A DNA stretch of 64,000 bases from Azospirillum brasilense (GTDB taxonomy: Bacteria > Pseudomonadota > Alphaproteobacteria > Azospirillales > Azospirillaceae), in assembly GCF_003349955.1 (NCBI RefSeq), contig NZ_QLKQ01000014.1, positions 1 to 64,000 on the forward strand, read 5' to 3'. Position numbers and translations under genes: made by a program. Below, in pieces: positions 15,344-31,257 of this stretch. A model generated the notes under the pieces. That model had not been told where the DNA came from and did no database searches. It worked only from the letters and a program-made list of their open reading frames with translations. Every line of letters begins with the position of its first letter. Positions within the stretch are counted from its first letter, which is position 1.

Positions 15344-15601
15344 ATGATGAAGGATCCCAAACAGATCGCGCGGGTTGCCCTGCAATCGGCCCGCGTCAAT
15401 GTCGAGGTCTACGAGGCCTGCGGCCTGATCGACACGCCGTCGGCCCACGGCCTGCGCTACAAGATCGCCGTGCAGGCCGGGGACGTGAACGGCGACGACT
15501 GCCGTTTCCCCTCCTGCGCCTGTCCCTGGCCGGACTGCTCCCGTCAGGCGGAGGCGGAAGCGGAGGGCGATCAGCCCAGCGGACCGACCGTCTCCACGTA
15601 A
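15344..15601 (+). CDS. Small cysteine-rich hypothetical protein
   Basis: An 85-residue reading frame with a helical first half (ARVALQSARVNVEVYEACGL) and a compact cysteine cluster CRFPSCACPWPDCSR near residue 53 that could bind a metal ion or be disulfide-bonded. The last 31 bases overlap the 3' end of the convergent regulator gene. No family was recognised. Coding-like codon use and the non-random cysteine spacing support it; the short length and the overlap count against it. Confidence 0.5.
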   Translation: MMKDPKQIARVALQSARVNVEVYEACGLIDTPSAHGLRYKIAVQAGDVNGDDCRFPSCACPWPDCSRQAEAEAEGDQPSGPTVST

Positions 15602-16641
15602 CGCTCCATGGCGGCGACGCCCTCTTCGGTCAGTTCGATGAAGACGCGGCGGCCGTCCTTGTCGTCGGCGATGCGCCGGACCAGCCCGCGGTCGTGCAGG
15701 TCGCTGATGCGGCGCAGCGCCGTGGTCTGGGCGACGCCGGACGCGATGCACAGCGACGACACGGAAATCCGCCGCCCCTGGAGATGGTTGATCATCAGGT
15801 CCAGCAGCATGTCCCAGCAGGGGTCCTCGAACAGCCCCTTGGGAAAGAACTTCTCGCGGGCGGCGCGCTTGCGCCGGATCGCCGTCAGAATGCCCAGGCT
15901 GTCCGGCGCGCCGCCGTCCGCCGCCGGGTCGCAAACGGGCGGAGCCGCGGCCGCGATGACCGTGGGGGACGCCGCGGGCGCGGCGGCCGTGCGATGGGCG
16001 GCGACGAAGGGCATCATGCGGGCCGCCGCGGCTTCCCCGCGCAAGGCCCGCACCGTTTCGACCAGCGCCAGCCCGTGGCGGTAGGCCTGCTCCAGCGCGT
16101 CGTCGCGGCTGTCCATGGCCGCCGGGAATTCCGGAGCGGGCGATGCACCCGTCTCCTCACCGTCGAGGACACGGGCCAGCGCACGCTCGATCTGCGCCTC
16201 GTCCTCCGGGTCGGTCACCACGTCGGCCGCTTCCAGCCGCAGGGCGCGCACCACGTCGTCGGCCTCCGGATTGCGGGCGAAGAGGATGCAGGCAAGGCCG
16301 CGGTGGGTGCGGTGCAGCCGTTCCATCAGCGCCAGACCGTCGAACCAGGGCGACCCGCCGTCCACGAACACCACGCCGACGCTGCGGTCCACATCGAGCA
16401 GGCCCAGCGCGGAGATGACGTCCCGCGTGTCCTGAACCCGGTGGCCGAGCCGCAGGGCGCAATCGCGGATACCGGCGATGGCCGCGCTGTCGTTGCCGAT
16501 GATCAAAATGGAAGGCGCCGCCGCCGAGTACGCCGGTGCCGAGTAGCCCGCCGCCGTTTGGCCGGCTGCCGTTTGACCGGCGGCCATGTGACCCGTCAGC
16601 GCGAGACGCTCCGCCGAACGCGAAACCAGGGACCGTTGCAT
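15571..16641 (-). CDS. Degenerate receiver fused to a MarR-like winged helix
   Basis: A 356-residue regulator. Residues 43-160 follow a response-regulator receiver. Asp94 is kept at the phosphoacceptor position (VFVDGGSPWFDG), but the paired acidic residues near the start are reduced to GND, and the conserved lysine is replaced by Asp144 (VVTDPED). After a loose Ala-rich linker, residues 255-350 form a winged helix of MarR/PadR type (RISVSSLCIASGVAQTTALR, then DDKDGRRVFIELTEEG). A paralogue with the same layout lies at 28965-29942. A perfect 20-base palindrome sits 161 bases upstream. The N-terminal 40 residues carry AAGQT/AAGYS repeats and look disordered. Confidence 0.8.
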   Translation of the reverse strand: MQRSLVSRSAERLALTGHMAAGQTAAGQTAAGYSAPAYSAAAPSILIIGNDSAAIAGIRDCALRLGHRVQDTRDVISALGLLDVDRSVGVVFVDGGSPWFDGLALMERLHRTHRGLACILFARNPEADDVVRALRLEAADVVTDPEDEAQIERALARVLDGEETGASPAPEFPAAMDSRDDALEQAYRHGLALVETVRALRGEAAAARMMPFVAAHRTAAAPAASPTVIAAAAPPVCDPAADGGAPDSLGILTAIRRKRAAREKFFPKGLFEDPCWDMLLDLMINHLQGRRISVSSLCIASGVAQTTALRRISDLHDRGLVRRIADDKDGRRVFIELTEEGVAAMERYVETVGPLG

Positions 16642-16872: not shown

Positions 16873-17622
16873 TCAAGATTCGTCGGATTCCAGTGCATAG
16901 CCGACCCCACGGACGGTAACGATCGGCGAGGACGTGCCGTCGTCCAGCCGCATCTTGCGGCGCAGCCGGGTGATCAGCGTATCCACCGTATGCTCGCTGA
17001 TGGAACGCGGGTCGCGGTTGCTGATCACGTCCAGAAGATATTCGCGGCTGACCGGGTTGGGCCGCATCGCCGCCAGCGCCGCCAGAATGTTGAACTCCCC
17101 CGTCGTCAAGGCGAGGTAGGAACCGTCGGGACGGAACAGCGCGCGGCGCACCAGATCCAGACGCCATCCCCGGAAGGTCAACGGCGCGTCGGGCGCCGGC
17201 CCCGCCGCCGCCTCCGCGGATGCGGGCGGAACGGCGGACGCCCCGGAGCGGCGCAGCAGGTTGCGGATGCGGATCAGCAGTTCGAGCAGATCGACCGGCT
17301 TGGTCACATAGTCGCCGCCGTGGGACAAACCGGCGATGCGGTCGGTCGGGCTGTCGCGCCCGGTCACGAAGATCAGCGGAACGGTCTCCCCCAGCCTCAG
17401 CCGCTCGGCCAGGGCCAGCCCGTCGCAATCCGGCAGATTGATGTCCAGCAGCACCAGGTCGGGCCGGTCCTGCGCGACGCGCGCGGTCAGTTCCGCCCCG
17501 TTCGCGGCCCGCAGCACCCGCAGCCCCTGATGCTCCAGGTAGGTCGCGATCAAATCCTGTGTTTCCGGGGAGTCCTCGACCACCAGCACGGTCCGCCCGA
17601 CCAGCTCCGATCCGACGCTCAT
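16873..17622 (-). CDS. OmpR-family response regulator
   Basis: A 249-residue two-component regulator. The receiver domain (residues 10-125) has the acidic pair in VVEDSPE, the phosphoacceptor Asp in LVLLDINLPDCDG, the threonine in FVTGRD and the lysine in YVTKPVD, so it looks fully functional. The C-terminal winged helix (about residues 150-245) shows LTTGEFNILAALA and VDTLITRLRRKM with VRGVGYAL, typical of OmpR/PhoB. It lies 64 bases downstream of the hybrid kinase on the same strand and is its likely partner through the kinase's HPt domain. Confidence 0.9.
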   Translation of the reverse strand: MSVGSELVGRTVLVVEDSPETQDLIATYLEHQGLRVLRAANGAELTARVAQDRPDLVLLDINLPDCDGLALAERLRLGETVPLIFVTGRDSPTDRIAGLSHGGDYVTKPVDLLELLIRIRNLLRRSGASAVPPASAEAAAGPAPDAPLTFRGWRLDLVRRALFRPDGSYLALTTGEFNILAALAAMRPNPVSREYLLDVISNRDPRSISEHTVDTLITRLRRKMRLDDGTSSPIVTVRGVGYALESDES

Positions 17623-17686: not shown

Positions 17687-20557
17687 TCATGTCAGCCCCG
17701 CCTCCCCCTTTTCGATGGCGCGCAGGGCGGCGTGAAGCCGGTCCCGCAGCGCCGCCGCGTCCCCTTGCATGGAAGCGGTCCCCCCGCCCCCGCTTTCGAC
17801 GGCCTGCGCCGTCCGCTCCAGTGCCCGCGCCGCGGCGCTCACCTCCGGAAAGCCATAGGTGCCGCCACTGCCCTTCATGCGGTGGGCCGCATCGACAACG
17901 CGCCGGGGCGGCGAGTCCGCGTCGTCGAGGACCGCCAGGACCTCTCGGCAGGCCTGGGCGAAGCGGTCCATCAGCCGGGTCCGATCGGCGCTGGACAGCC
18001 CGCCGGCAACCGGCCCCGCCGTGAACGGCGCCCGCTGGACCGTCACGGACGGAGCGGGCGCGCCGGAGCCCGACGGCGCGTGACGGGCGAGCGCGTCCTG
18101 GAGCGCGTCGGGGTCCACCGGCTTCGCCACCACCTCGTCCACGCCGGCGTCCAGATAGTCCGCGCGGTCCTCCGGAGAGCTGTTGGCGGTCACCGCGATC
18201 ACCGGCACCAGCGCGCGCTCCGCATCCGGCAACGCGCGGATGCGCCGCGTCACCTCCACCCCGTCGATCCCCGGCAGCCGCATGTCGAGCAGGACGACGT
18301 CCACGGTCCTGGTCGCCAGCACCGCCAAGGCCGCCTCGCCGCTCTCCACATAGACGGCGCGATGGCCGCCCGGCGCCAGGTACTCGCGCAGGATGGCCTG
18401 GTTCTCCGGCGCGTCCTCCACCACCAGGATGTCCAGGCTTCCCGGAACGGGCATGGGAGCGGCGCGGTCCGGTGACGGATCGGCGACCGGCAACGGGCGG
18501 GTCGGCAGCGAGACCGTGAAGAGGGAGCCGCCACCCGGCCGCCCCTCCAGGCAGACCGTGCCGCCCATCAGCCGGACGAGCCCGTCGACGATGGCGAGCC
18601 CCAGCCCGGCGCCTTCGCGGCGGTTGCCTTCCAGCCGGCTTCCCTCCAAACGATGGAAGGGCTCGAAGATGATGGCCTGCGCCGCCCGCGGCACGCCGGG
18701 ACCGCTGTCCGCCACGGTCAGGCACAGGACGACCGTCCCGCTGGCCGCGTCCGGTGGCGCATGGCTGGTGGTCAGCGTCACCTCCACCCCGCCGCGTTCG
18801 GTGAATTTCACGGCGTTGCTCAGCAGGTTCAGAACGATCTGGCGCAGGCGCAGTGGATCGATCCAAAAGCGCGCCACCCCCAGGCCGCTGACCGTCAGGG
18901 ACAGGGCGAGCCCCTTTTCCTCGGCGCCCGCCCGCATCAGCGCCACGGCGTCCTCGACCAGCGCCACCACGTCGGTGGGCTGGGGATGAAGCTCCATCCG
19001 GCCCGCTTCCAGCCGCGACAGATCGAGAATGGTGTCGAGCATCGAGACGAGGTGCCGCCCCGCCCCGTCCGCGACGCGCAACCGCTCGTCCATCCGGTCG
19101 GTCGGCCCCTCGCGGCGGATCACCCGCACCATGCCGAGAATGGCGTTCAGCGGGGTCCGGACCTCGTGGCTGAGGTTGGCGAGGAAGCGTTCCAGCGTCG
19201 CGGACTTGTCCGACAGGGCGCGGGTGCGCTCGGCGATCTGGCGCTCCAGCCCCTCGTTGAGCGCGGCCAGCTCCTGGGACAGCCGGCGCTCGTTGAGGAA
19301 GGCCGTCTCCACCCGCCGCCCCAGCACCAGCGCGTGGCTGAACAGGAACAGCAGCGCGCCGTAGGGAACGAGGTCGATGCTCTCGAAGAAATGCGCGTAC
19401 ATCAGCGCGTCGTGCACCACCGACCCCAGGAAGGCCAGCGCGCCCGCCCCCAGCAGGAGCGCGCCGGAATGGCGGCGCAGGGCGGCCACGGCGAGGCGCC
19501 ACGCGAAATACAGGGCCGACAGCACCAGCAGCAGGCTCGCCACGTCGCGCAGCCGGGTGAACTGCGCCGGCTCGGTCACCAGAACCAGGAACATGCCCGG
19601 CACCGCGACCGCCATCATGGCGCGCCCGACCCCGCGGTGCAGGCAACCGGGAAACAGCTCGCGCAACAGGTGGAAGTAGATCGGGTAGAACATGTAGATC
19701 GGCAGATATTCCAGCCGGTAGGCCCAGACCTCCGACACGCCGGGGAAGAAGACGCGCAGCAGTTCGCTGGTGCACATCAGCCGCATGGCGCAGGCGGCCA
19801 GCAGCATGACCAGGAACAGCGGGGCCGCCGAGAGGCGCCGGCGCAGGAAGGCGCCGATGAACAGCGCCATCAGCGACAGCGACATCAACGCCCCGGCGTT
19901 GGTCATCAACTGCCGCTGCCACAGACGCGACAGCCCGCCGTTGGCGTCGAGATAGATCGTGCGCCCGATTCCGCCCTCGAAATGGAAGTGGTTGGAGACC
20001 TCCACCGCCAACTCGATCACCCGCTGCCCGCCGTGCAACGTGACGAAGCGGGAAACGGAGGAGGACCGCTCCTGCGCGGCGGCCAGGGCCGGCACTCCGG
20101 CGCCGGCGACCGAGCGGCCGTCCACCCACACCCGCATGGCCGAATTGACCGGCGGCATCTTCAGCGTCAGCGGTGGCATTCCCGGCGGCAGCAGGATCTT
20201 CAGGCGGAAGGTGGCGGCGCCAAACCCGCCCATCTCCCGGCCGTCCGGGCGCTCCACCCCGTTCCAGATCGCCGGCAGGGTGAAAAGCGTCCAGAGCGAC
20301 CCATCCGGCTCCGGCAGGGGATTCAGGCTTTCCTCCCCGGCCAGACGGTCCCAGGACACCAGCCATTCACCGTCCAGCGACACCGGCCCGTCGAGGTCGG
20401 CGTACCAGCCGCGCAGGTCGAGCACGCCGCGCTCCGCCTGCGGCAGGACCGTGGCCAGAGCCGGACCGCTGGCCAGAACGGTGCAAAGAAGAGCGAGAAG
20501 CAGAACCGCGCCCAGCCGTCGGGCGCCACAAGCAAAAATGGCGGTTACGGACGGCAT
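17687..20557 (-). CDS. Hybrid sensor histidine kinase with 7TMR-DISM input, receiver and HPt domains
   Basis: A 956-residue membrane kinase. A signal peptide (about 1-36) is followed by a beta-rich extracytoplasmic domain of 7TMR-DISMED2 type (GEWLVSWDRLAGEE, later FRLKILLPPGM), about seven membrane helices (roughly residues 215-400), a coiled coil, HisKA with NLSHEVRTPLNAILGM, and HATPase motifs (LRQIVLNLLSNAVKF, DSGPGVP, GAGLGLAIV). A receiver (VVEDAPENQ, VVLLDMRLPGIDG, VVAKPVD) and a C-terminal HPt (DAAHRMKGSGGTYGF) complete the phosphorelay. I preferred the ATG at 20557 because the upstream extension is not signal-like. 7TMR-DISM inputs are thought to bind small carbohydrates or similar ligands. 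Confidence 0.88.
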   Translation of the reverse strand: MPSVTAIFACGARRLGAVLLLALLCTVLASGPALATVLPQAERGVLDLRGWYADLDGPVSLDGEWLVSWDRLAGEESLNPLPEPDGSLWTLFTLPAIWNGVERPDGREMGGFGAATFRLKILLPPGMPPLTLKMPPVNSAMRVWVDGRSVAGAGVPALAAAQERSSSVSRFVTLHGGQRVIELAVEVSNHFHFEGGIGRTIYLDANGGLSRLWQRQLMTNAGALMSLSLMALFIGAFLRRRLSAAPLFLVMLLAACAMRLMCTSELLRVFFPGVSEVWAYRLEYLPIYMFYPIYFHLLRELFPGCLHRGVGRAMMAVAVPGMFLVLVTEPAQFTRLRDVASLLLVLSALYFAWRLAVAALRRHSGALLLGAGALAFLGSVVHDALMYAHFFESIDLVPYGALLFLFSHALVLGRRVETAFLNERRLSQELAALNEGLERQIAERTRALSDKSATLERFLANLSHEVRTPLNAILGMVRVIRREGPTDRMDERLRVADGAGRHLVSMLDTILDLSRLEAGRMELHPQPTDVVALVEDAVALMRAGAEEKGLALSLTVSGLGVARFWIDPLRLRQIVLNLLSNAVKFTERGGVEVTLTTSHAPPDAASGTVVLCLTVADSGPGVPRAAQAIIFEPFHRLEGSRLEGNRREGAGLGLAIVDGLVRLMGGTVCLEGRPGGGSLFTVSLPTRPLPVADPSPDRAAPMPVPGSLDILVVEDAPENQAILREYLAPGGHRAVYVESGEAALAVLATRTVDVVLLDMRLPGIDGVEVTRRIRALPDAERALVPVIAVTANSSPEDRADYLDAGVDEVVAKPVDPDALQDALARHAPSGSGAPAPSVTVQRAPFTAGPVAGGLSSADRTRLMDRFAQACREVLAVLDDADSPPRRVVDAAHRMKGSGGTYGFPEVSAAARALERTAQAVESGGGGTASMQGDAAALRDRLHAALRAIEKGEAGLT

Positions 20558-21002: not shown

Positions 21003-21764
21003 TCAGGCCATGGCCTTCATCTGCTTGTCCATGCGGGCCAGCACGGCCATCACCTCCTTGCAGCGGCTCTTCACATCCTCGTCGGTCTCCGGGATGCCGT
21101 CCTGGGAGGAGATGTTGCGCCAGTCCTTCAGGAAGGCCTTCAGCTCGGGCATCTTCGGCAACTGGGTGCCGACGCCGCGGATGTCCTCCTTCCACAGGTC
21201 CTGGTAATCGCCCACCGTCTTCGCCGTCTTCAGCTTCTTCGCCAGGGACAGCATGTATTTTTCCAGGATCTCCCGCCCCTTGGCGCGCACCTTGTCGGCC
21301 TTCTCGATGGCGTCCTTCATGCCCTCGTAGTCATCGACGATCTTGTCGCCGAGCGAGGACTGGTTGAAGGCGACGAAGAGCTGGTCGGCGGCCTTGGCGA
21401 CCTTCTCCGCGTGGGCGGTGGAATCCTTCGGGATCAGCTTGTTCGCTTTGAACTTCTTCGCCGTCGCCTCGGCCAGATCGCGGAGCTTCTGGAGCTGGGT
21501 GCGCAGCGGCTCGACCGAGCGCTTGTACTCCGCCCGCGCCTCGTCCAGCAGCGAGTTGAGGTCGTCCAGCGTGGCGTTGCTGGGGGCGTTCACCGACACG
21601 CTCAGCGTCTTCCAATTGATGGCGCCGTGCGCCTTGTCCACCGCCTTCATCGCGTCGCCGATGCCGGTCTTGCCGGCGATCTTGGCGATGGCGCCCTTCT
21701 TCTTGTCCCAATCCTTCTGGGTCAGGATGTCCGGGATGTCGATCCGCTTCAGGGGACCACCCAT
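21003..21764 (-). CDS. Helical coiled-coil protein of unknown function A
   Basis: A 253-residue, lysine-rich, almost wholly helical protein without signal peptide or membrane segment. It begins MGGPLKRIDIPDILTQKDWDKKK and contains heptad-like stretches such as LDEARAEYKRSVEPLRTQLQ. No family was recognised. It is the last gene of the leftward run that begins at 28591, 148 bases behind helical protein B, so it may belong to the same transcript or have its own promoter. Similar size and character suggest that A and B act together. Confidence 0.7.
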   Translation of the reverse strand: MGGPLKRIDIPDILTQKDWDKKKGAIAKIAGKTGIGDAMKAVDKAHGAINWKTLSVSVNAPSNATLDDLNSLLDEARAEYKRSVEPLRTQLQKLRDLAEATAKKFKANKLIPKDSTAHAEKVAKAADQLFVAFNQSSLGDKIVDDYEGMKDAIEKADKVRAKGREILEKYMLSLAKKLKTAKTVGDYQDLWKEDIRGVGTQLPKMPELKAFLKDWRNISSQDGIPETDEDVKSRCKEVMAVLARMDKQMKAMA

Positions 21765-21912
21765 GTCTCACCTCCTCCGCTTAACCAAGCATTCACCCTA
21801 TCGGTCCGCATGGTAGGAGGCGGGCGCGCCCCTCGGAATCGGCGATTGCTCCTCTCCCGCCGCGACCGGAACCGAATGGGTCCAAAACGGCGGCTTCGCC
21901 CCCCGCCCCGCT

Positions 21913-22686
21913 TCAGCGACCGCCCACCAGCTGCACCACGCCCTTGCAGACGGTGGCGAACTCCTTGATGAGGTCGGTGATCTGGCGGGCGGTGTAGTCG
22001 GGCGGCACGCGCATCGGCGGCCCGTCGCCGCCCTGCCCGGCCCACGGGGCGAGCTTGCGACGGTAGAAGTCGGGATCGGCGCGCAGCCCGTCCAGCGCCT
22101 TCGCCGCGGCGAGCTGGGCGGCGAGATCGCGGGCCAGCGCCGGGAACAGCTCGTTGTAGGTGTCCGGCGTCGGCTTGGCGCGCACCTTGGCGACCCCGGC
22201 GGCGGCGCGGGCGAGCGCGCCGTTGATGTTGGCCTCCCATCGCTTCTGCGCCCGCTCCGACGAGGCGGCGTCCTTCTCGGCCTGGGCGGCCTGCGCCTTG
22301 AAGCGGTCGGCGTCCGCGCCGATGTCCGCCTCCAGTTCGGCGACCTCCTTGACAAGGGCCTTCATCGCCCGTTCGCAGACCGCCGCCGCAGCCTTGTCGC
22401 CACGGCTTGCCGTATCCTCGTCCAGGGCCTTGCCGAGCGTGGCCAGATAGGCTTTGCGCGCCTTCGCGGCGTCCTTCCCCACGGCGACGAGAGCCCTCAC
22501 GGCCTCATCGCCGGCCGTGGCGGCGCGGTGGACGGCGTCGCCGGCCTTCAACGCCTTGACCAGCGCGGCGTCGCCGTTCAGCGCGGCGGCGACCGCCTTG
22601 GCGTCCTTAGGCCGGTGCTTCGCCGTGGCGGCCTCGAAGCGCTTGCGGGCCGCGGCCCAGCGCTGCTCGTAAGGGACATGCGCCAT
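21913..22686 (-). CDS. Helical coiled-coil protein of unknown function B
   Basis: A 257-residue alanine/lysine-rich protein, predicted helical throughout, with long heptad-like tracts (KEVAELEADIGADADRFKAQ) and a more structured C-terminus containing DFYRRKLAPWAGQ and YTARQITDLIKEFATVCKGV. It has no signal peptide or membrane helix. It begins 21 bases after the ATP-grasp stop and so is probably in the same operon. Function unknown; a structural or scaffold role for the neighbouring enzymes is only a guess. Confidence 0.7.
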   Translation of the reverse strand: MAHVPYEQRWAAARKRFEAATAKHRPKDAKAVAAALNGDAALVKALKAGDAVHRAATAGDEAVRALVAVGKDAAKARKAYLATLGKALDEDTASRGDKAAAAVCERAMKALVKEVAELEADIGADADRFKAQAAQAEKDAASSERAQKRWEANINGALARAAAGVAKVRAKPTPDTYNELFPALARDLAAQLAAAKALDGLRADPDFYRRKLAPWAGQGGDGPPMRVPPDYTARQITDLIKEFATVCKGVVQLVGGR

Positions 22687-22707
22687 CGCCGCCCGTCCGT
22701 TCCGACG

Positions 22708-23961
22708 CTACGCGACGGTCGGCTGGAGGCGGTCCTCCAGGGAGCGGATGGCGGCCCAGTCGCGCTCGAACACGGCGCGGTCCGGATGCGCCAGATAGAC
22801 CTTCGCCAGCACCTGAGTCAGATCGAGGGTCGGCACCACATCGTCCCCGACCCGCGGCACGAGGCCGTAGCCGCGCACGCTCGCCATCCCGTCGAGGACG
22901 GAAAGGTCCGGCAGCGCCGCCACCCGGCCCGACACCAGAACCGGCAGGTAAAGGACCATCGCGTCGGCCTGGAACCGGTAATGGCCGTCGAGCAGCGGCC
23001 CGACCGCCGCCGCCCCGTCGAAGGCGTCGACCAGCAGATCGACCTGATCGTGCCCGGTGCCCGCCGCGATGCCGGTGGTCGAGCCGGCCGGCCCCATGGC
23101 GCGCGCCGCGATCTCCACCAGCGCCGGTCCGCGCGCGGTCATCCGCACCTCGGCATGGCCGGCGCCGTCGGTGATCTCCAGCGCGTCGAGCACCCGGCGG
23201 ATGTAGGCCATCAGCGCCTGCGCCACCGGCTCCTCCGGCGGCAGCAGACGGTAATAGTCGTAGACGAAGGGCGACCCGTTCAGCGCCCGCTTGGCCGACA
23301 GCAGGACGTCGCAGACATAGTGGCGCCCGCCGCGGCTGACCGTGTTGACGACGTATTCGAGCCCGTCGAGGTAGGTCTGCACCAGCACCCGCTCGTTGGC
23401 CGAACCGCAGAAGTCGCGGCTGCCCAGGATGGCGTCCACGGCGGCGCGGAGCTGCGCGGGGGTGTCGCAGAAATAGACATGGTCGGTGGAGGCGCTGGCC
23501 ATCGGCTTCGCCACCACGGGCCAGCCCGCCTGTGCCGCCCACTCCACCGCCTCCGCGGCGCCGGTCGCCATGGTCTGGCGGGCGGTCAGCAGGCCGGCGG
23601 CGGCCAGCCGCTCGATCATCATGAACTTGTTGCGGCGCGCGGCGGTCAGCTTCGGGCTGTTGCCCGGCGTGCCGAGAAGGGCGCCCAGCGCGTCGGTCAG
23701 CTCCACCGCGGACTCGTTGCCCGGCAGGATGAAGGCCGGGGCCAGCGGGCGCAACGTCCTCGCCAGCGCGTCGAGGTCGCCGTCATGGAGGATGTGCGCC
23801 GCGAAGTCGTTGGGCTGATAGCTGCGCAGCAGCGACAGGGCGAGGTCCGGGCGGCTCTGCACCGCGACCACGTCGTAGCCCCGCGCGCGCAGGCGCGGCG
23901 CCAGAAGGATGCCGGTGGAATAGGGGTCGACGACGACCGCAATCTTGCGCAGGGCACTCAC
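22708..23961 (-). CDS. ATP-grasp carboxylate-amine ligase
   Basis: A 417-residue cytosolic enzyme with the ATP-grasp layout. It has an N-terminal pre-ATP domain (VDPYSTGILLAPRLRARGYD, then FILPGNESAVELTDALG), the nucleotide lysine in VVAKPMASASTDHV (Lys152), VQTYLDGLEYVVNTVS, and the metal-binding block HAEVRMTARGPALVEIAARAMG. This is the arrangement of L-amino-acid and dipeptide ligases of the BacD/RizA kind, which join a carboxylate to an amine through an acyl-phosphate. The substrates cannot be read. Its start overlaps the upstream GNAT stop by 4 bases (23958-23961). Confidence 0.85.
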   Translation of the reverse strand: MSALRKIAVVVDPYSTGILLAPRLRARGYDVVAVQSRPDLALSLLRSYQPNDFAAHILHDGDLDALARTLRPLAPAFILPGNESAVELTDALGALLGTPGNSPKLTAARRNKFMMIERLAAAGLLTARQTMATGAAEAVEWAAQAGWPVVAKPMASASTDHVYFCDTPAQLRAAVDAILGSRDFCGSANERVLVQTYLDGLEYVVNTVSRGGRHYVCDVLLSAKRALNGSPFVYDYYRLLPPEEPVAQALMAYIRRVLDALEITDGAGHAEVRMTARGPALVEIAARAMGPAGSTTGIAAGTGHDQVDLLVDAFDGAAAVGPLLDGHYRFQADAMVLYLPVLVSGRVAALPDLSVLDGMASVRGYGLVPRVGDDVVPTLDLTQVLAKVYLAHPDRAVFERDWAAIRSLEDRLQPTVA

Positions 23962-24743
23962 GGCGTGGCCTCCAGCTCGGCGTCCTGGGGTACGGCCTGC
24001 ACCGGCTCCTGCGGGCGCGCGTAGGTGACCAGCGGCACGGGACCGTCCAGCTCCACCGACCGCCCGATCCAGCCGGCCTCGATCACCGCCCTCTGCTCGT
24101 CCAGCTCGGGCACCGCGAAAACGCGCTCGCTGCCCGGCACCCAGGCGGGCGGCGCCGCCCCCAGGTCGCGGTGCAGCAGGTAGCGCAGCCGGCCGCTGGC
24201 GTGCATGACCAGCACCCGGCGCACCAGGAAGCCGCCGGCCAGCAGGTTCGCCAAGCTGCGCGGGTTGGACAGGGCGACGCGCGAGAACAGGTGCGGGCGC
24301 CCGGCCCCGAGCGCGTGGAGCGTGCGCAGAGTCACCAGCAGCCGTTGCAGCCCGTTGCCGCGGAAGTCCGGATGGACCATGCAGCTCGCCATGTGGGCGG
24401 TGGCGGTGACGGCGGGGCGCGCGCCCGGCAGGTCGTCCACGAAGGCCGGCATGCCCGGCTGCGGCAGCCCCAGGATGGCGCAGCCGATCAGCCGCCCCTC
24501 GGCCTCCAGCCCCAGGGTCACGCCGCGCTCACCCAGATGCAGACCGGCGAACTCCGGCGTTTCGGGGAAATAGGCGTCGATGTCCGGCAACTGCCCGAAG
24601 ATGTAGCCGCGGAACGCCTCCAGCGCCGGCAGGTCGGCGGGGCCGAGGAAGCGGATGCGGTAGGGAACGCAGACCGGCTCGCCGCGCCGGACGCGCAGCA
24701 TGCCCGTGTGGACCGTCTGTTCGGGGGATAAGAGGACCGTCAT
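23958..24743 (-). CDS. GNAT-family N-acetyltransferase
   Basis: A 261-residue protein with the acetyl-CoA fold: RIRFLGPADLPALEAFRGYI at the start of the domain, ASCMVHPDFRGNGLQRLLV with the RGNGLQ phosphate loop (about residues 117-135), and VALSNPRSLANLLAGGF. The C-terminal 80 residues extend beyond a minimal GNAT. It is encoded 1 base after the binding-protein stop and overlaps the ATP-grasp gene by 4 bases. The pairing suggests that it acylates the substrate or product of the ligase. Confidence 0.82.
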   Translation of the reverse strand: MTVLLSPEQTVHTGMLRVRRGEPVCVPYRIRFLGPADLPALEAFRGYIFGQLPDIDAYFPETPEFAGLHLGERGVTLGLEAEGRLIGCAILGLPQPGMPAFVDDLPGARPAVTATAHMASCMVHPDFRGNGLQRLLVTLRTLHALGAGRPHLFSRVALSNPRSLANLLAGGFLVRRVLVMHASGRLRYLLHRDLGAAPPAWVPGSERVFAVPELDEQRAVIEAGWIGRSVELDGPVPLVTYARPQEPVQAVPQDAELEATP

Positions 24744-24744
24744 G

Positions 24745-25797
24745 TCAGGCGTCCTGGACGATTTCGGCGATGTTGAGCAGGCGCATCGGCGGGTAGAGGT
24801 CCAGTTGCTTGGCCGCCCCGATGCGCAGCAGCAGGGAGAAGCGGTTCAGCGTCTCCACCGGAATGGTGTCGGCGGGCTTGGCTCCGGTCAGGATCTCCAC
24901 CGCCTTCAGCCCGGCGAAGCGCCCGACGTTGACGGCCGGGCTGACCAGCCCCATCAGCAGGTTGGCCCGGCGGATTGGCAGCTCGGTGGAGCAGAAGGTG
25001 GCCAGCCGGTGGGCCAGCGCCTGCTCGGCCACCACCGCGTTGTTGTTGGAGGCGACCAGCGTGTCCGGCCCGATGTAGACCAGCTCCGCCCCGGCGCGCG
25101 CCGCGTCGGCGATCAGGTCGGGGATGGCGGCGGCGACCGGCGCGCCGGAGGCGTCGCGCGGCAGCGCCGCGTCGTGGATCTCCACCCCCTGGCGGGCGGC
25201 CTCCTCCTTCAGGTCGCGCACGGCGACGACCATGTTGTCCTCGGCCGGGTTGTAGACCGCGGCGATCTTCTTCCAGCGCCGGTAGGACAGCATGGTCTTC
25301 ATCTGCACCGCGGCCGGCGCGATGTGCCTCGTGCCGGTGACCGCGCGCCCCGGACGGTCCAGCGCGCGCACGACCCGCGAGGCCACCGGGTCGGTGACCG
25401 AGGTGAAGACCACCGGCACGTCGGTCAGGAAGCGCGACGGGTCCGGATCGTCGTAGCGCCCGACCGCTCCCAGGGTCAGCGGCGTGAAGACCGTCACCAC
25501 CAGATCGGGCTTGGAGGCCCGGATCTCCGGCAGCAGCGCCGGCATGGCGGAGGCCTGCGGCACCTCGCGCACCTCCACCGTGGCGGACAGGCCGCTCGAC
25601 GCGATGAAGTCGCGCAGGCCCAGCACGTCGCCGACGTCCTTGCGCGGGGTCAGCACGACGATGCGCGCCGGCTTGGCGGCGGTGAAGGTCCGGGCCGCCG
25701 GACCGAAGGACGGCTGCGCGAAGGATGGTGCGGCCCCGGCCAGCAGAGTTCCGGCGCTCAGGGCGGCCGTCAGGACGGTGCGGCGGGACAGGCTCAT
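24745..25797 (-). CDS. ABC-type substrate-binding protein, PF04392-like, Tat-type signal
   Basis: A 350-residue periplasmic protein. The signal peptide contains the twin-arginine motif SRRTVLTAAL and an AQP cleavage region near residue 28. The mature part has the layout of the TrpX-like ABC_sub_bind family: IVVLTPRKDVG, a DLVVTVFTPLTLG strand, DVPVVFTSVTDPVASR, KKIAAVYNPAEDN and YIGPDTLVASNNNAVVAEQA. Members bind amino acids or other small ligands. No ABC permease or ATPase is adjacent; instead it lies between a HAMP-MFS fusion (4-base overlap at 25794-25797) and a GNAT gene. It may present the ligand to the sensor-like proteins upstream. Confidence 0.85.
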   Translation of the reverse strand: MSLSRRTVLTAALSAGTLLAGAAPSFAQPSFGPAARTFTAAKPARIVVLTPRKDVGDVLGLRDFIASSGLSATVEVREVPQASAMPALLPEIRASKPDLVVTVFTPLTLGAVGRYDDPDPSRFLTDVPVVFTSVTDPVASRVVRALDRPGRAVTGTRHIAPAAVQMKTMLSYRRWKKIAAVYNPAEDNMVVAVRDLKEEAARQGVEIHDAALPRDASGAPVAAAIPDLIADAARAGAELVYIGPDTLVASNNNAVVAEQALAHRLATFCSTELPIRRANLLMGLVSPAVNVGRFAGLKAVEILTGAKPADTIPVETLNRFSLLLRIGAAKQLDLYPPMRLLNIAEIVQDA

Positions 25798-27773
25798 GCG
25801 GGGGTCCTCTGCGGAAGGTCGGCGGCGGGCGGACGCGGGCGGAACAGGGTGCTCAGCAGAAGCTGCACGGCGACGCAGGCCGCCAGCACCGCGCCGATGC
25901 CCTTCAGCGCCCCGGCGTAGCCGTAATGGGCCAGGAACAGCCCGGCCAGGAAGGGAGCGATGACCGAACCCAGCCGCTCGATCAGGCGGAACATGCCGAT
26001 CACCGTGGTCTCGCCCAGCGCCGCCCGCTCCTTGACGCAGACGTCGGCGAGCATGGCGAGCTGCGGCGCGCCAAGCATGGCATGCGCCACCCCCAGCAGG
26101 GCGACCCCGGCCAGCGCCGTGCCGAGCGAACCCGGCATCGACAGCACCCAGGCGGCTCCGGCGGCGACCAGCCCGCCCGCCACCAGGAAGCCGATGCGCT
26201 GGCCCGAGCGGTCCGACAGCTTCGCCGCCATCGGAGACACCACGATCATCAGCAGCCAGTAGAGCAGCAGCACGCGGCCGATCCAGGACTGGCTGACCCC
26301 CTGGTCGTCCAGCGCCAGCGGCAGCAGGAAGAACAGCAGCGCCGTCAGCCCCAGCTTCGCCGGAACCGCGCTGAAGACGGCCAGCCCGACGAAGCGCGGG
26401 TTGCGCAGGCACAGCACGGCGTCGGCCAGACGCAGGCCGCGGCTGGATTTCGCCTGGGCCGCGCGCACCCGCGGCAGCACCTGCCACGCCATGAAGGCGG
26501 CCAGCAGCGCCAGCCCGGCGGAGATCAGGAAGGTCGTGCGGAAGCCCACCTGCCCGGCGATCACGCCGCCGATGGCCGGGCCGCAGACGCCGGCGCTGAG
26601 GATGCCGCCGGCGTACATGGCGATGGCCTGGGCGCGCTGCTTGGGGTCGGTGGCGTCGATGACGAAGCCCTGCGCGGCGATGAAGACGCTGGCGTAGCCG
26701 ACGGCGGTCAGGCAGCGCGCGACGATGAGCTGGATGAGGTCGGTGGCGAGGCCGGAGCCGACGAGGCCGACGAAGGACAGCAGCGCCCCGCCCAGGAACA
26801 CGGCCCGCCGCCCGCGCCGTTCCGACACGCTGCCGGCGATCGGCTGGCTGACCGCCCAGAGCAGCATGAACAGCGCGATGGGCGCGCCGATGACCATCTC
26901 CATCGACAGGCCGGGCACCGGCTCGAACAGCTGCTTGATGTAGACGGACAGGAAGGTGCGGGTCAGCTCCTCCGCCAGGGAGAAGACGAAGATGGCGAAG
27001 CGCAGCTCGACCACCCGCTGCATCATACCGATCTTGGTCATCGCCTGCTCGGAGGCGGTCATGTCGGCCTTGTGCTGCACGCTGTCCAGCGCCCAGTCGA
27101 CGGCGCGCGACAGCTCGCCCACCTCGTCGCGGTTGCGCAGGGCGACGCGCACGCCGAGATGCCCGTCGGCGGCCTGCTTCATCACCGCCGTCACCCGGCG
27201 CAGCGGTGCGGCGACGGAGGAGCCGACGACCAGCAGCAGGATCTCGATGTTGAGCAGGATGGCGACGATCAGCACGGAGCCGAGGTCGAACACCACCTCG
27301 TTCATGGCCGAGCGGACATAGCCGGAATCGACGCCGACATGCAGCCGCGCCGCCTCGTTGCCCTCCAGCGGCAGGACGGTGTCGAGGAATTGCGGGGACT
27401 CGCCCTCCGGCGGGGTGTCGGCGACGGTCAGGCGGCTGCCCGCCCGCGCCTCCTCGGTTCCCGAGAAGGCGTGGAGGCGCCCGTCGATCTCCAGCGCCAG
27501 ATACTTGACGTCCGGGTTGGCGGCCAGCGCGTCGGACAACAGCTCGTCCACTCCGACCAGCTTGTCCAGCTCGAAGCCGAGCGCCACCGCGCGGTCGATC
27601 TGCGCCACCACATAGGACCCGACGACCTCGGCCTTGCGGGCCAGTTCCGGCTCGATCAGCGGGCGGAACAGCGTGTTGACGTGGTTGGTCTGGACGGCGA
27701 GGCTGACCAGCATCAGGACGGACACGACGCCCGTCAGCATCCAGTTCAGGCGGCGTATGAAGGACAGCTTCAT
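25794..27773 (-). CDS. Chemoreceptor-like sensor-HAMP module fused to an MFS transporter
   Basis: A 659-residue inner-membrane protein with two parts. Residues 1-240 look like the front of a chemoreceptor or kinase: membrane helix 12-29, a periplasmic domain of about 135 residues (YLALEIDGRLHAFSG, a dCache/sCache-like strand pattern), membrane helix 165-185, then a HAMP with the hallmark DEVGEL at 216-221. Residues 255-645 are a 12-helix major facilitator transporter, including the loop motif GSVSERRGRRAVF. There is no kinase or methylation domain between them, so the HAMP feeds directly into the transporter. Both start and stop overlap neighbouring genes by 4 bases. Confidence 0.85.
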   Translation of the reverse strand: MKLSFIRRLNWMLTGVVSVLMLVSLAVQTNHVNTLFRPLIEPELARKAEVVGSYVVAQIDRAVALGFELDKLVGVDELLSDALAANPDVKYLALEIDGRLHAFSGTEEARAGSRLTVADTPPEGESPQFLDTVLPLEGNEAARLHVGVDSGYVRSAMNEVVFDLGSVLIVAILLNIEILLLVVGSSVAAPLRRVTAVMKQAADGHLGVRVALRNRDEVGELSRAVDWALDSVQHKADMTASEQAMTKIGMMQRVVELRFAIFVFSLAEELTRTFLSVYIKQLFEPVPGLSMEMVIGAPIALFMLLWAVSQPIAGSVSERRGRRAVFLGGALLSFVGLVGSGLATDLIQLIVARCLTAVGYASVFIAAQGFVIDATDPKQRAQAIAMYAGGILSAGVCGPAIGGVIAGQVGFRTTFLISAGLALLAAFMAWQVLPRVRAAQAKSSRGLRLADAVLCLRNPRFVGLAVFSAVPAKLGLTALLFFLLPLALDDQGVSQSWIGRVLLLYWLLMIVVSPMAAKLSDRSGQRIGFLVAGGLVAAGAAWVLSMPGSLGTALAGVALLGVAHAMLGAPQLAMLADVCVKERAALGETTVIGMFRLIERLGSVIAPFLAGLFLAHYGYAGALKGIGAVLAACVAVQLLLSTLFRPRPPAADLPQRTPA

Positions 27774-28591
27774 GGCGCGACTCCCGCCGGGCGCGCGGCC
27801 TCCGCCGCCGGACCGGCGGGCTGGGGAGGGTCCTCCTCCGCACCGTGCTGCTGCTGTTCCAGGATGCGGTCGGCGAAATCCTTCAGGCCGGGGGCGAAGG
27901 CCGCCAGCTCCGGGGTCAGCTTGGGCGGCTCGCCCATGCCCAGCATGTTGATGCTGACGGTCATCTCGCGCAGCCGCCGCTGGATCGGACGCAGCAGCAG
28001 CCAGACCGCGACCATGGTGATCAACAGCCCGGTCAGCAGATTGATGCCGCCGGACAGCAGCAGGTCGGGAATGGTGCCGCGGATGCCCGCCTGCACCTCG
28101 CCCAGCGAATAGGTCAGGGCGACGCCGCCGGCCACGCCGCCGAAGGCGTTGCGGATGCCGAGCAGAAGCGCCTGGCTGTCGCCGTCGGCGACGGCCGCCA
28201 CCCGGTCGGACTTGCCGTCGCGGGCGAAGGCCGCCTTCCAGCCGGCGGGGATCGCGCCCACCGGGCCACCGTGCCCCGCCCCCCGGCCCGCCGCCGCCAG
28301 CACCTCGCCCGTGTCGGTGAACAGGACCAGACCGGTGATCCGGTCGTCCCGCACCATCGCGCGCTGGATCAGCGCGTCGAGATTGCGCAGGGCGGTGATG
28401 GACACGCCGAGGCTGACCGCGCCCTCGACCTCCCCGGCCAGCCCGCGCAGGGCGACGGTGAAGCGGGACGCCACGGTGTCCTCCACCATGCGCTCCATCT
28501 TCAGATAGGAGAGCGCGGCGGTGGAGAGCAGCGCGAAACAGAGCGCCACCTGCAGCAGCAAAATGATCTTGGTCGTCAGGGTCAGGCGCAT
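27770..28591 (-). CDS. Two-TM sensor-like membrane protein without an output domain
   Basis: A 273-residue protein: membrane helix 8-30, a periplasmic sensor domain of about 145 residues (DDRITGLVLFTDTGEVLAAA is Cache/PAS-like), membrane helix 178-200, and a short cytoplasmic tail starting RPIQRRLREM as a HAMP would. The tail ends proline/alanine-rich after about 70 residues with no kinase, GGDEF or methyl-accepting domain. I chose the ATG at 28591 because the longer reading begins with non-conserved sequence. It is the first gene of the leftward run and overlaps the HAMP-MFS gene by 4 bases. Confidence 0.75.
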   Translation of the reverse strand: MRLTLTTKIILLLQVALCFALLSTAALSYLKMERMVEDTVASRFTVALRGLAGEVEGAVSLGVSITALRNLDALIQRAMVRDDRITGLVLFTDTGEVLAAAGRGAGHGGPVGAIPAGWKAAFARDGKSDRVAAVADGDSQALLLGIRNAFGGVAGGVALTYSLGEVQAGIRGTIPDLLLSGGINLLTGLLITMVAVWLLLRPIQRRLREMTVSINMLGMGEPPKLTPELAAFAPGLKDFADRILEQQQHGAEEDPPQPAGPAAEAARPAGVAP

Positions 28592-28964: not shown

Positions 28965-29942
28965 ATGCGGATCGAGTTGGAGCGACCCTTGGCGTGGCCG
29001 GTGCGCCCGGTTCAGACCAGCGCCGGCCTTCATGTTTCGGCGACGTCCATTCTGATCGCCTGCGCCGACCGCGCGCTGGGAATCGGCATGCACGACGCCT
29101 TCGAACGCAACGGCCACCGCATCCACGTGACCCACGACCCCATCGCGGCGCTCGACACGCTGGAAGCGGACGGCAGCATCGGCATCGTGGCGGTCGAGTT
29201 GGCCCTGCCCCATTTCGACGGGCTGGCTCTGGTCGAGCGGATGCGCAAGAGCGTGCAGCGGCATCTCCAGGTCATCGTCGTAGCACCCGACGCCACGGCG
29301 GCGGACGTCGTCCGCGCCATGCATCTGCGCGCGGCGGACTTCGTCAGCGATCCGCAGGACGGCAGCCAGCTTCACGGCGCGCTCGCCCGCGCCCTGGCCG
29401 CCCATCAGGCGGCGGCGCCGCTGCCCGCCCCGCCTGCGCACGCCGGCAACGGCGCGTTGCATGGCGCGCTGGAGGACGCCTACCGCCACGGCCTCGCCCT
29501 CATCGAAGCGGTGAAGGCGCTGCGGGAGAACCAGCCTGAGGCGGCCGCGCCGGCAAGGGTCACCGCGCAGGCCGCTCCGCCCCCGCCCCCTGCCGCGGCG
29601 GGGGAAAACCGGCGGCTGGCGGTTTTGAGGACGCTCCAGCAATCCCGCGTCGCCCGCGACAAGTATTTTCCGAAGGGGCTGTTCGAGGACCCCTGCTGGG
29701 ACATGCTGCTCGATCTGATGGCCAACCACCTGCGCGGGCGGCGGATTTCCGTGTCGTCGCTGTGCATGGCCTCCGGCGTGGCCCAGACCACGGCGCTGCG
29801 GCGGATCACCGAACTGCACGATCGCGGTCTGGTGCGCCGGATCGCCGACGAGAAGGACGGCCGCCGCGTCTTCATCGAACTGACCGAACAGGGGATCGTC
29901 GCCCTGTCCGACTATGTCGAGCACATCCAGGACCTGACCTGA
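28965..29942 (+). CDS. Pseudo-receiver fused to a MarR-like winged helix (second copy)
   Basis: A 325-residue paralogue of the protein at 15571-16641. The receiver part (about 27-145) has lost phosphorylation chemistry: the phosphoacceptor Asp is Glu78 (VAVELALPHFDG), the acidic pair is CAD, and the conserved lysine is Asp129 (FVSDPQD). The C-terminal winged helix (about 230-318) is nearly identical to its paralogue, including KGLFEDPCWDMLLDLM and DEKDGRRVFIELTEQG. It probably binds DNA with a state set by something other than phosphorylation. It is transcribed away from the sensor/MFS run and may regulate it. A GGGGAAGGG ribosome-binding site precedes the ATG. Confidence 0.82.
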   Translation: MRIELERPLAWPVRPVQTSAGLHVSATSILIACADRALGIGMHDAFERNGHRIHVTHDPIAALDTLEADGSIGIVAVELALPHFDGLALVERMRKSVQRHLQVIVVAPDATAADVVRAMHLRAADFVSDPQDGSQLHGALARALAAHQAAAPLPAPPAHAGNGALHGALEDAYRHGLALIEAVKALRENQPEAAAPARVTAQAAPPPPPAAAGENRRLAVLRTLQQSRVARDKYFPKGLFEDPCWDMLLDLMANHLRGRRISVSSLCMASGVAQTTALRRITELHDRGLVRRIADEKDGRRVFIELTEQGIVALSDYVEHIQDLT

Positions 29943-30090: not shown

Positions 30091-31257
30091 ATGGCCGACC
30101 AGAAACTGAAGGATGTGATCGTCGTCGCGACCCCGACCGAGGGGATCGGCCCGACATCCTCCCTGCCCACGCGCCCGGCGTCGCCCAGCGAGGAGCCGGA
30201 CCGCCAGCGCATGGCCGAACGGCTGCGCGCCCAGGGTTGGAGCTACCGCCGCATCGCGGAGGAGTTGCAAGTCTCCTACATCCTGGTGTCGCGCTGGCTG
30301 GGGGGTGACGGCGCCACCTCCGGCGGTCCGCGCACGCCGCCGACCGCCGTCGCTCCCTCCCCGCCGGCCCCCGGCGGGACGCGGACGGCCAAGGCGACCA
30401 AGGCCGCGAAGGCGGCGGCCAGCGCGGCCGCGCCCAGCGCCGACGAGGATGTTCTGGCGCTCCAGTTCCGCGCCTTCGAGCAGTATGTGCGCGAGGTGAT
30501 CGACGGCATGGAGACGCGGCACGAGTCGCTTCTCCAACGCCAGGAGGAGCTGATCCAGGCGCTCGACACGGAGCGCGCCGCCGCCCGTGCGCGGGAAGAG
30601 GAGTTGCTCGCCACCCTCGACCAGGAGCGCCAGCGCTGGAGCGAGGCCGAGGACCGCTTCCGCGAGGAGCTTGAACGCTTCAAGACGGAGATGCGCCGCG
30701 GCCAGAGTGCGGCGAGCGCGGTCGCCGTTGCCACTGCGGCACTCGGCGGTGGCGACGAGGAGGAGGAGGAGTCCTCGGATTTCTCCGCTTTCAGTTTCGA
30801 CGACGATGACGACGAGACCAAGGACGACGATGCGGGCGGCGATGACGCCAACGCCTTCAACTTCGATGATGACGAGGATGAGGACGGCAGCGATCCCTTC
30901 AGCTTCGACACCGACGACGCGGAGGAGACGGCCGAAGACGAAACAACCGACTCGGCCGACAGCGCTGACGACGACGGTGACGATCCCTTCAGTTTCGACG
31001 ATGACGAAACGGAGGAAACGGCCGAGGACGCTCCCGCCAAGACGGATGCGGAACCGGACGAGGACCCGTTCTCCTTCGACAGCGACGACGAGCCGGACGA
31101 GCCCAAGGCCGAAGCCGAGCCGGCCGGAACCGCAAAGGCTGACGCCGAGGACGATCCCTTCTCCTTCGGCGACGAGCCGGAGCCCGAACCGGAGCCGGAG
31201 CCCGAACCGGAGGCCCCGCCGAAGAAGAAGGGACTCTTTGGCTTCTGGCGCAAATGA
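30091..31257 (+). CDS. Acidic repeat protein with N-terminal helix-turn-helix and FSF motifs
   Basis: A 388-residue protein of unknown function. Residues 38-70 (MAERLRAQGWSYRRIAEELQ and then VSRWL) look like a resolvase/transposase-type helix-turn-helix. Residues 120-203 form a charged coiled coil. Residues 220-375 are extremely acidic and probably disordered, punctuated by six short motifs: FSFD at 234, FNFD at 256, DPFSFD at 268, 298 and 325, and DPFSFG at 355. A (PE)n tract follows, and the protein closes with the basic-aromatic tail KKKGLFGFWRK. The motifs suggest several docking sites for one partner. It lies between the pseudo-receiver gene and dprA. Confidence 0.8.
   Translation: MADQKLKDVIVVATPTEGIGPTSSLPTRPASPSEEPDRQRMAERLRAQGWSYRRIAEELQVSYILVSRWLGGDGATSGGPRTPPTAVAPSPPAPGGTRTAKATKAAKAAASAAAPSADEDVLALQFRAFEQYVREVIDGMETRHESLLQRQEELIQALDTERAAARAREEELLATLDQERQRWSEAEDRFREELERFKTEMRRGQSAASAVAVATAALGGGDEEEEESSDFSAFSFDDDDDETKDDDAGGDDANAFNFDDDEDEDGSDPFSFDTDDAEETAEDETTDSADSADDDGDDPFSFDDDETEETAEDAPAKTDAEPDEDPFSFDSDDEPDEPKAEAEPAGTAKADAEDDPFSFGDEPEPEPEPEPEPEAPPKKKGLFGFWRK

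Follow-up and report, generated by a model that had tools for sequence, protein, structure and literature searches.

The DNA analysed here (the window) is a stretch of 64,000 nucleotides from Azospirillum brasilense (contig NZ_QLKQ01000014.1, positions 1 to 64,000), taken from an assembly of 7.1 Mb. Within it we investigated a run of seven open reading frames (ORFs), all on the minus strand, that spans positions 21003-28591 and combines sensor, transport and enzyme genes. The run begins with sens, encoding a small sensor of 273 amino acids (27770..28591, ATG at 28591). This is followed by a fusion of a Cache-like sensor, a HAMP domain and a major facilitator superfamily (MFS) transporter with 12 transmembrane (TM) segments (659 amino acids, 25794..27773), and by a PF04392 (TrpX-like) periplasmic substrate-binding protein (SBP, 24745..25797). 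A GNAT-family acyltransferase (23958..24743) and an ATP-grasp ligase of the L-amino-acid ligase/DdaF type (22708..23961, GTG start) come next, and the run closes with two helical proteins, the all-helical h1 (helical 1, 21913..22686) and the lysine-rich h2 (helical 2, 21003..21764). Four-base overlaps (ATGA or GTGA) join sensor to MFS fusion, MFS fusion to SBP and GNAT to ATP-grasp, while the remaining gaps measure 1 base (SBP to GNAT), 21 bases (ATP-grasp to h1) and 148 bases (h1 to h2). An earlier note, made from the sequence alone, had described seven same-strand genes with these positions and spacings, and analysis of the ORFs, their starts and their junctions confirmed it.

Pfam matches above cut-off within the run were restricted to HAMP and MFS_1, PF04392, PF00583 and ATP-grasp_4; sens, h1 and h2 matched no family above cut-off. 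A scan of the run for sigma-70-like promoters found none, and the one terminator-like site within it sits right where the first gene starts; neither result is informative (2 terminator-like sites in total, 3.8 expected by chance). Rfam and tRNA scans yielded nothing useful.

The small sensor carries two TM-like segments flanking a single periplasmic domain, with a short cytoplasmic helix after the second segment. Its sequence gave no Pfam Cache match. The AlphaFold2 model (predicted local distance difference test, pLDDT, 84.9) consists of a TM helix, one PAS-like Cache domain and a TM helix, and the best crystal match of this model was the WalK ectodomain (Z 14.3, 2.3 Å over 137 residues). Judging from the model, sens can be classed as a Cache/PAS-like sensor with a predicted periplasmic PAS-like fold between two TM helices. 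The MFS fusion is laid out similarly at its N terminus, where a periplasmic domain lies between two TM segments, followed by HAMP (1.7e-9) and then by the MFS part (MFS_1, 1.2e-49, 169.6 bits at a cut-off of 33.4). In an alignment of 14 diverse relatives E269, R596, E599 and R600 of the MFS part were invariant or near-invariant, and the protein contains a motif-A-like GSVSERRGRR; its role as a transporter is predicted. The closest NCBIfam models were of the efflux type, every one of them far below cut-off. HisKA and HATPase domains were absent from all seven proteins of the run in Pfam searches, so that the run does not classify as a two-component system. In a gammaproteobacterial type VI secretion system (T6SS) cluster (L092:7974-10541), we observed an 855-amino-acid MFS fusion into which the small sensor seems to have been incorporated, so that two of these parts would be naturally fused.

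The SBP matches PF04392 with 89.2 bits (3.6e-25, cut-off 25.9). Proteins of this family normally serve uptake. Its closest solved relatives are 3lft, 3lkv and 6hni, which we take to be binders of aromatic amino acids, and it scored 79.1 bits against the NCBIfam TrpX equivalog, far from the cut-off of 390. The earlier note had assigned it a Tat-type (twin-arginine translocation) signal; an RR motif is indeed present, but the NCBIfam score of 10.7 bits falls below the cut-off of 16.7, so that the assignment is weakly supported. The note's observation that the permease and ATPase of an ABC system are missing was borne out: no such genes were found in the run or among its neighbours, and the run does not form a TrpX-type importer. 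The loci of relatives likewise have the SBP without these ABC partners. What adjoins the SBP instead, here and in nearly all relatives (see below), is the MFS fusion.

The GNAT protein (PF00583, 25.2 bits, cut-off 20.7) contains an acyl-CoA-type loop, RGNGLQ. The ATP-grasp protein exceeds the cut-off of NCBIfam PRK07206 (320.9 bits, cut-off 302), and its nearest solved relative is the L-amino acid ligase 30vh (E 1.6e-61). Against DdaF (dapdiamide A synthase) it reached 207.1 bits, far short of the equivalog cut-off of 840.

Relatives were found by a whole-genome search with the MFS fusion, and their neighbourhoods were annotated with purpose-built profile hidden Markov models (HMMs); ORF calling in relatives relied on a simple rule of composition or length, which makes the exact starts there approximate. 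Matches at 97-98% identity came from Azospirillum brasilense and close species. Of 385 sampled Alphaproteobacteria, 17 have relatives of the MFS fusion, as do several Gammaproteobacteria. Among 47 scored loci from the two classes, which include several close Azospirillum relatives and are not 47 independent cases, the MFS fusion has the small sensor next to it in 45 loci and the PF04392 SBP in 44. The three exceptions for the SBP comprise a locus truncated by the end of its contig, a locus with the SBP gene on the opposite strand and a locus that lacks it. Distance matrices correlate between MFS fusion and SBP (0.58), MFS fusion and sensor (0.64), and SBP and GNAT (rho 0.85), with none of 2000 permutations reaching values as high. 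Because both partners stand beside the MFS fusion in nearly all loci and the distances correlate, we conclude from these gene neighbourhoods and sequences that a core of small sensor, Cache-HAMP-MFS fusion and SBP is conserved from Azospirillum to Vibrio.

The order and spacing of all seven genes are kept in the A. brasilense group. Other Azospirillum keep the five-gene part, with h1 at about 50% identity and h2 lost or weak. A second genus (L054) has the same five genes in a different order, and the MFS-SBP-GNAT-ATP-grasp part is present in an alphaproteobacterial metagenome-assembled genome (L046). The search for conserved gene order in Azospirillum and beyond, which the earlier note had suggested, thus found homologues that are not mostly apart from each other, and its claim of a linked unit holds, gene order being conserved in tens of genomes above chance. 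The unit is not, however, the seven-gene set that it had envisaged: three proteins form the core, the enzymes around them are exchangeable and the helical genes are lineage-specific.

The enzymes around the core vary among loci, with GNAT, the ATP-grasp ligase or others in their place, and some loci have none. GNAT occurs in many relatives but not all, and the ligase is missing from most; the "peptide-like chemistry" of the earlier note therefore fits the ATP-grasp version only. Elsewhere we found an alpha/beta hydrolase with a histidine phosphatase (L059, L061), alanine racemase (L081, L118, L173), a ketopantoate hydroxymethyltransferase-like (PanB-like, PF02548) protein (L082, L085) or a formyltransferase (PF00551; L120, L121, and upstream in L090) beside the core. 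The hydrolase and histidine phosphatase arrangement recurs in related form in L059, L061, L057 and L098 (A. lipoferum 4B); the MFS protein of L057 and L098 has neither the HAMP sensor part nor a neighbouring SBP. We infer that the ligand is amino-acid-like, from the TrpX-like relatives of the SBP, the L-amino-acid-ligase-like ATP-grasp protein and the alanine racemase of some relatives.

The two helical proteins are Azospirillum-type, lineage-specific extras to the core. h1 belongs to an Azospirillum paralogue family whose members share the N-terminal motif W..AK..FE..TGKKKP and are variable over the remainder, and these paralogues are almost confined to genomes with this cluster. Its AlphaFold2 model is all-helical (pLDDT 89.6) and gave no clear fold match, helical-bundle and receptor matches not rising above the level usual for helical proteins. 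Scattered single genes (L169:8511-9215, L170:8386-9660, L174:7081-7929, L175:7793-9226 and L172:6850-7734) keep the h1 motif and differ in their C-terminal parts. h2 is found in the brasilense group and in distant relatives; it may be a functional accessory, because a homologue in a second genus adjoins an alanine racemase-SBP-MFS fusion-GNAT array (L173). The idea that proteins of the h1 family are cargo encoded next to T6SS was not supported, since none of 8 h1-paralogue regions and 1 h2-homologue region had T6SS neighbours. PADLOC matches of h1 and h2 to MukB-like and DRT models (20.9 and 24.0 bits) were discarded as coiled-coil noise.

A signalling connection of the core emerged from the neighbours of relatives. 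A second version in Azospirillum has, after the core, another small sensor, a HAMP sensor and a SpoIIE phosphatase (PF07228, 4.4e-53), with a STAS gene nearby, and this second sensor pair is homologous to sens and to the N terminus of the MFS fusion. Two loci that have GNAT and ATP-grasp as in the window (L077, L078) carry a dCache-HAMP-cyclase (adenylate/guanylate) as the third protein of the trio, in place of SpoIIE. Overall, a SpoIIE or cyclase gene lies within 12 kb in 20 of the 47 loci, and genes for STAS and for an anti-sigma-type ATPase (HATPase_c_2) are also among the neighbours of relatives. The SpoIIE, STAS and anti-sigma-type ATPase genes of a partner switch are absent from the window; the same genome has a SpoIIE gene on contig C118.

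Further, several relatives are linked to T6SS. In two other Azospirillum genomes (G033, G010) one contiguous stretch joins a T6SS to the five genes of the window and h1, in the order hcp-tssC-tssB, sensor2-sensor3-SpoIIE, tssK-tssL-tssM-tssA-hcp, a ligand-gated-ion-channel-like gene, HTH and response regulator, and finally sens-MFS-SBP-GNAT-ATP-grasp-h1. No tss gene lies in the window, and the matching T6SS of the same genome, with sensor2-sensor3-SpoIIE and the channel-like gene, is found on C118, a second T6SS being on C16. The second Azospirillum version is preceded by Hcp-VgrG-DUF6931-FHA-TssK genes, a gammaproteobacterial T6SS cluster has SBP and MFS genes between FHA and ClpV, and in Vibrio sp. 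THAF190c a run of T6SS genes opens with the core. When T6SS linkage was mapped onto a tree built from 45 MFS fusions, 7 changes were required, and well-supported branches force 6 of them.

Our leading interpretation of the run, with about an even chance of being right, is a transmembrane chemosensory module that recognises an amino-acid-like ligand and has a signalling output, most likely T6SS in Azospirillum; the ligand, the direction of transport and the output are inferred. The core probably informs the cell of an amino-acid-like chemical. In such a module the SBP would capture the ligand in the periplasm and dock on the paired Cache domains of sens and the MFS fusion, so that the state of the HAMP domain would be set jointly by binding and by the transport state of the MFS part. 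The signal could then pass through a relay of homologous Cache proteins to a SpoIIE-type phosphatase, with its STAS and anti-sigma-type ATPase partners, or to a nucleotide cyclase. T6SS activity would be the likeliest controlled process because the Azospirillum relay is built into the T6SS locus. GNAT and the ATP-grasp ligase may act in the cytoplasm, acylating or ligating either the ligand or a precursor of it, and in the A. brasilense group the window cluster would have split from its T6SS/SpoIIE half while staying on the same replicon.

Several observations weigh against this interpretation. The run encodes neither a phosphotransfer nor a kinase domain, and the link from HAMP to SpoIIE is therefore drawn from homologous neighbours. 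In complete A. brasilense-group genomes, about 0.5 Mb separates the window cluster from the T6SS on a shared replicon, and one locus (L056 in G001) has sensor and MFS fusion without any SBP. Additionally, genome-level co-occurrence of the MFS fusion and TssK was not significant in alphaproteobacterial genomes (5 of 17 versus 63 of 368, Fisher P = 0.20). Since it was not, T6SS cannot be the sole output, and we rejected a T6SS-only role; T6SS would be one output of the module, not the only one.

The enzymes could also have a different place in the circuit. If they made an amino-acid-derived signal that the MFS part exports and the SBP and Cache sensors read back, the module would be a quorum-like gate on T6SS or on a partner switch. 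This would account for a constant receptor accompanied by one or two small-molecule enzymes that differ by locus (GNAT, amino-acid ligase, alanine racemase, PF02548, PF00551, or hydrolase and histidine phosphatase), for the efflux-type models (all far below cut-off) that the MFS part matches best, and for the strong SBP-GNAT distance correlation. We nevertheless regard it as unlikely, because five loci (L083, L089, L093, L095, L097) combine the receptor with T6SS or SpoIIE and have no enzyme, two (L082, L085) have the PF02548 enzyme only, and the cluster contains no precursor-supplying pathway. A dipeptide cluster of the dapdiamide type, in which the ATP-grasp ligase makes a dipeptide, GNAT gives self-protection, the MFS part exports and SBP and sensor provide feedback, seems very improbable to us: the similarity of the ligase to DdaF (207 bits) and to a solved L-amino acid ligase and the resemblance of the MFS part to drug exporters stand against a score far under the equivalog cut-off of 840, the lack of any further biosynthetic gene in the run, and a core that is widespread without any ligase.

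The earlier note had proposed that a ligand bound in the periplasm may control export or import of a small molecule made or modified by GNAT and ATP-grasp. The recurrent links to SpoIIE, STAS, cyclases and T6SS, which could not be seen from the window alone, make signalling at least as likely as transport control. In a further alternative the MFS part would be an SBP-assisted secondary transporter, importing an SBP-delivered amino-acid derivative under the tuning of the Cache domains, with GNAT and ATP-grasp processing the cargo and the T6SS and SpoIIE neighbours being incidental. The adjacency of SBP and MFS fusion in 44 of the 47 loci, the lack of an ABC partner in the window, the near-invariant charged residues of the MFS part and the usual role of PF04392 proteins are all consistent with this. 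However, the transporter carries Cache and HAMP and is accompanied by another, free Cache sensor, all of which belong to signalling, and SpoIIE, cyclase and T6SS neighbours recur on several branches of the tree, so that we doubt this explanation. More tentatively than for the chemosensory module itself, we suggest that the core could represent a new class of trans-envelope receptor, made up of an SBP and a pair of Cache sensors fused to an MFS protein. It would be coupled to transport and would recognise an amino-acid-derived signal that the cell makes itself, and gene exchange would repeatedly have connected it to T6SS, SpoIIE partner switches or cyclases.

On the plus strand, divergent from the run, lie a gene for a response regulator with a MarR-type winged helix (28965..29942; PF00072, MarR_2) and one for an HTH_23 protein with a long acidic tail (30091..31257). 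Other Azospirillum and G057 likewise have the receiver-MarR gene next to the run, and its product (28965..29942) is a probable regulator of the cluster, judging from sequence; a paralogue lies at 15571-16506 on the minus strand (HMM score 321). In other Azospirillum (L048, L050) the HTH_23 gene separates the response regulator from the end of the T6SS. Just downstream of the run, both on the minus strand, are a hybrid kinase (17687-20557; 7TMR-DISM, HisKA, HATPase, receiver and Hpt) and a response-regulator gene (16873-17622); a homologue of the kinase also occurs near the cluster in L048 and L049, and it may belong to the neighbourhood. Between T6SS or SpoIIE genes and the cluster, a Neur_chan_LBD (ligand-gated-ion-channel ligand-domain) protein was repeatedly observed (L130:2274-3215, L048:3605-4546, L050:3324-4370, L046:3978-4931), with a match over cut-off in L048, a weak one in L050 and assignment by similar sequence start in L130 and L046. 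In L116 (12342-14540) a dCache-PAS-GGDEF-EAL protein, a possible cyclic-di-GMP output, lies two genes past the core.

A literature search among open-licence papers found no description of such a module, in agreement with the earlier note, which knew of no described system with this set; the three-protein sensing module is widespread in bacteria and apparently undescribed. LuxP-LuxQ, an SBP-assisted sensor receptor, likewise pairs a periplasmic binding protein with a membrane sensor bearing a Cache/PAS-like periplasmic domain, whereas here a PF04392 SBP is combined with two sensors, one fused to a 12-TM MFS protein, in a core that has no kinase domain. TagQRST-PpkA, in which TagST is an ABC complex, controls T6SS and is also a trans-envelope sensor set encoded with it, but no homologous parts were recognised, and the set described here has an MFS fusion with SBP and SpoIIE. 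TrpXYZ-type ABC systems (PF04392; 3lft) share the homologous binding protein, which in the window has the MFS fusion next to it in place of an ABC permease and ATPase. SpoIIE, STAS and HATPase_c_2 genes of partner switches adjoin many relatives, while the window, which has none, is tied to them only through its relatives and through the T6SS locus elsewhere in its genome. DdaF and L-amino acid ligases are homologous to one part only of the window cluster, the one missing from most relatives. UhpC-UhpB is a transporter-coupled sensor. Conceptually nearest to the module, among known systems, are sensors assisted by an SBP and sensors coupled to a transporter, for instance the SLC5/STAC kinases (PMC9100948), histidine kinases of which CrbS is an example (PMC9100948, PMC5715377). 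Both UhpC-UhpB and the SLC5/STAC kinases combine a transporter-like membrane protein with a signalling domain; here, in contrast, the MFS part follows an N-terminal Cache-HAMP, an SBP is added and the core lacks a histidine kinase.

If the chemosensory interpretation is true, transporter, binding protein and HAMP signalling would be united in one receptor unit, and a second role, linked to MFS proteins, would be added for an SBP family that has been assumed to work with ABC importers. How most bacteria decide on the use of their T6SS is poorly known, and a conserved receptor with a defined SBP makes this question testable.

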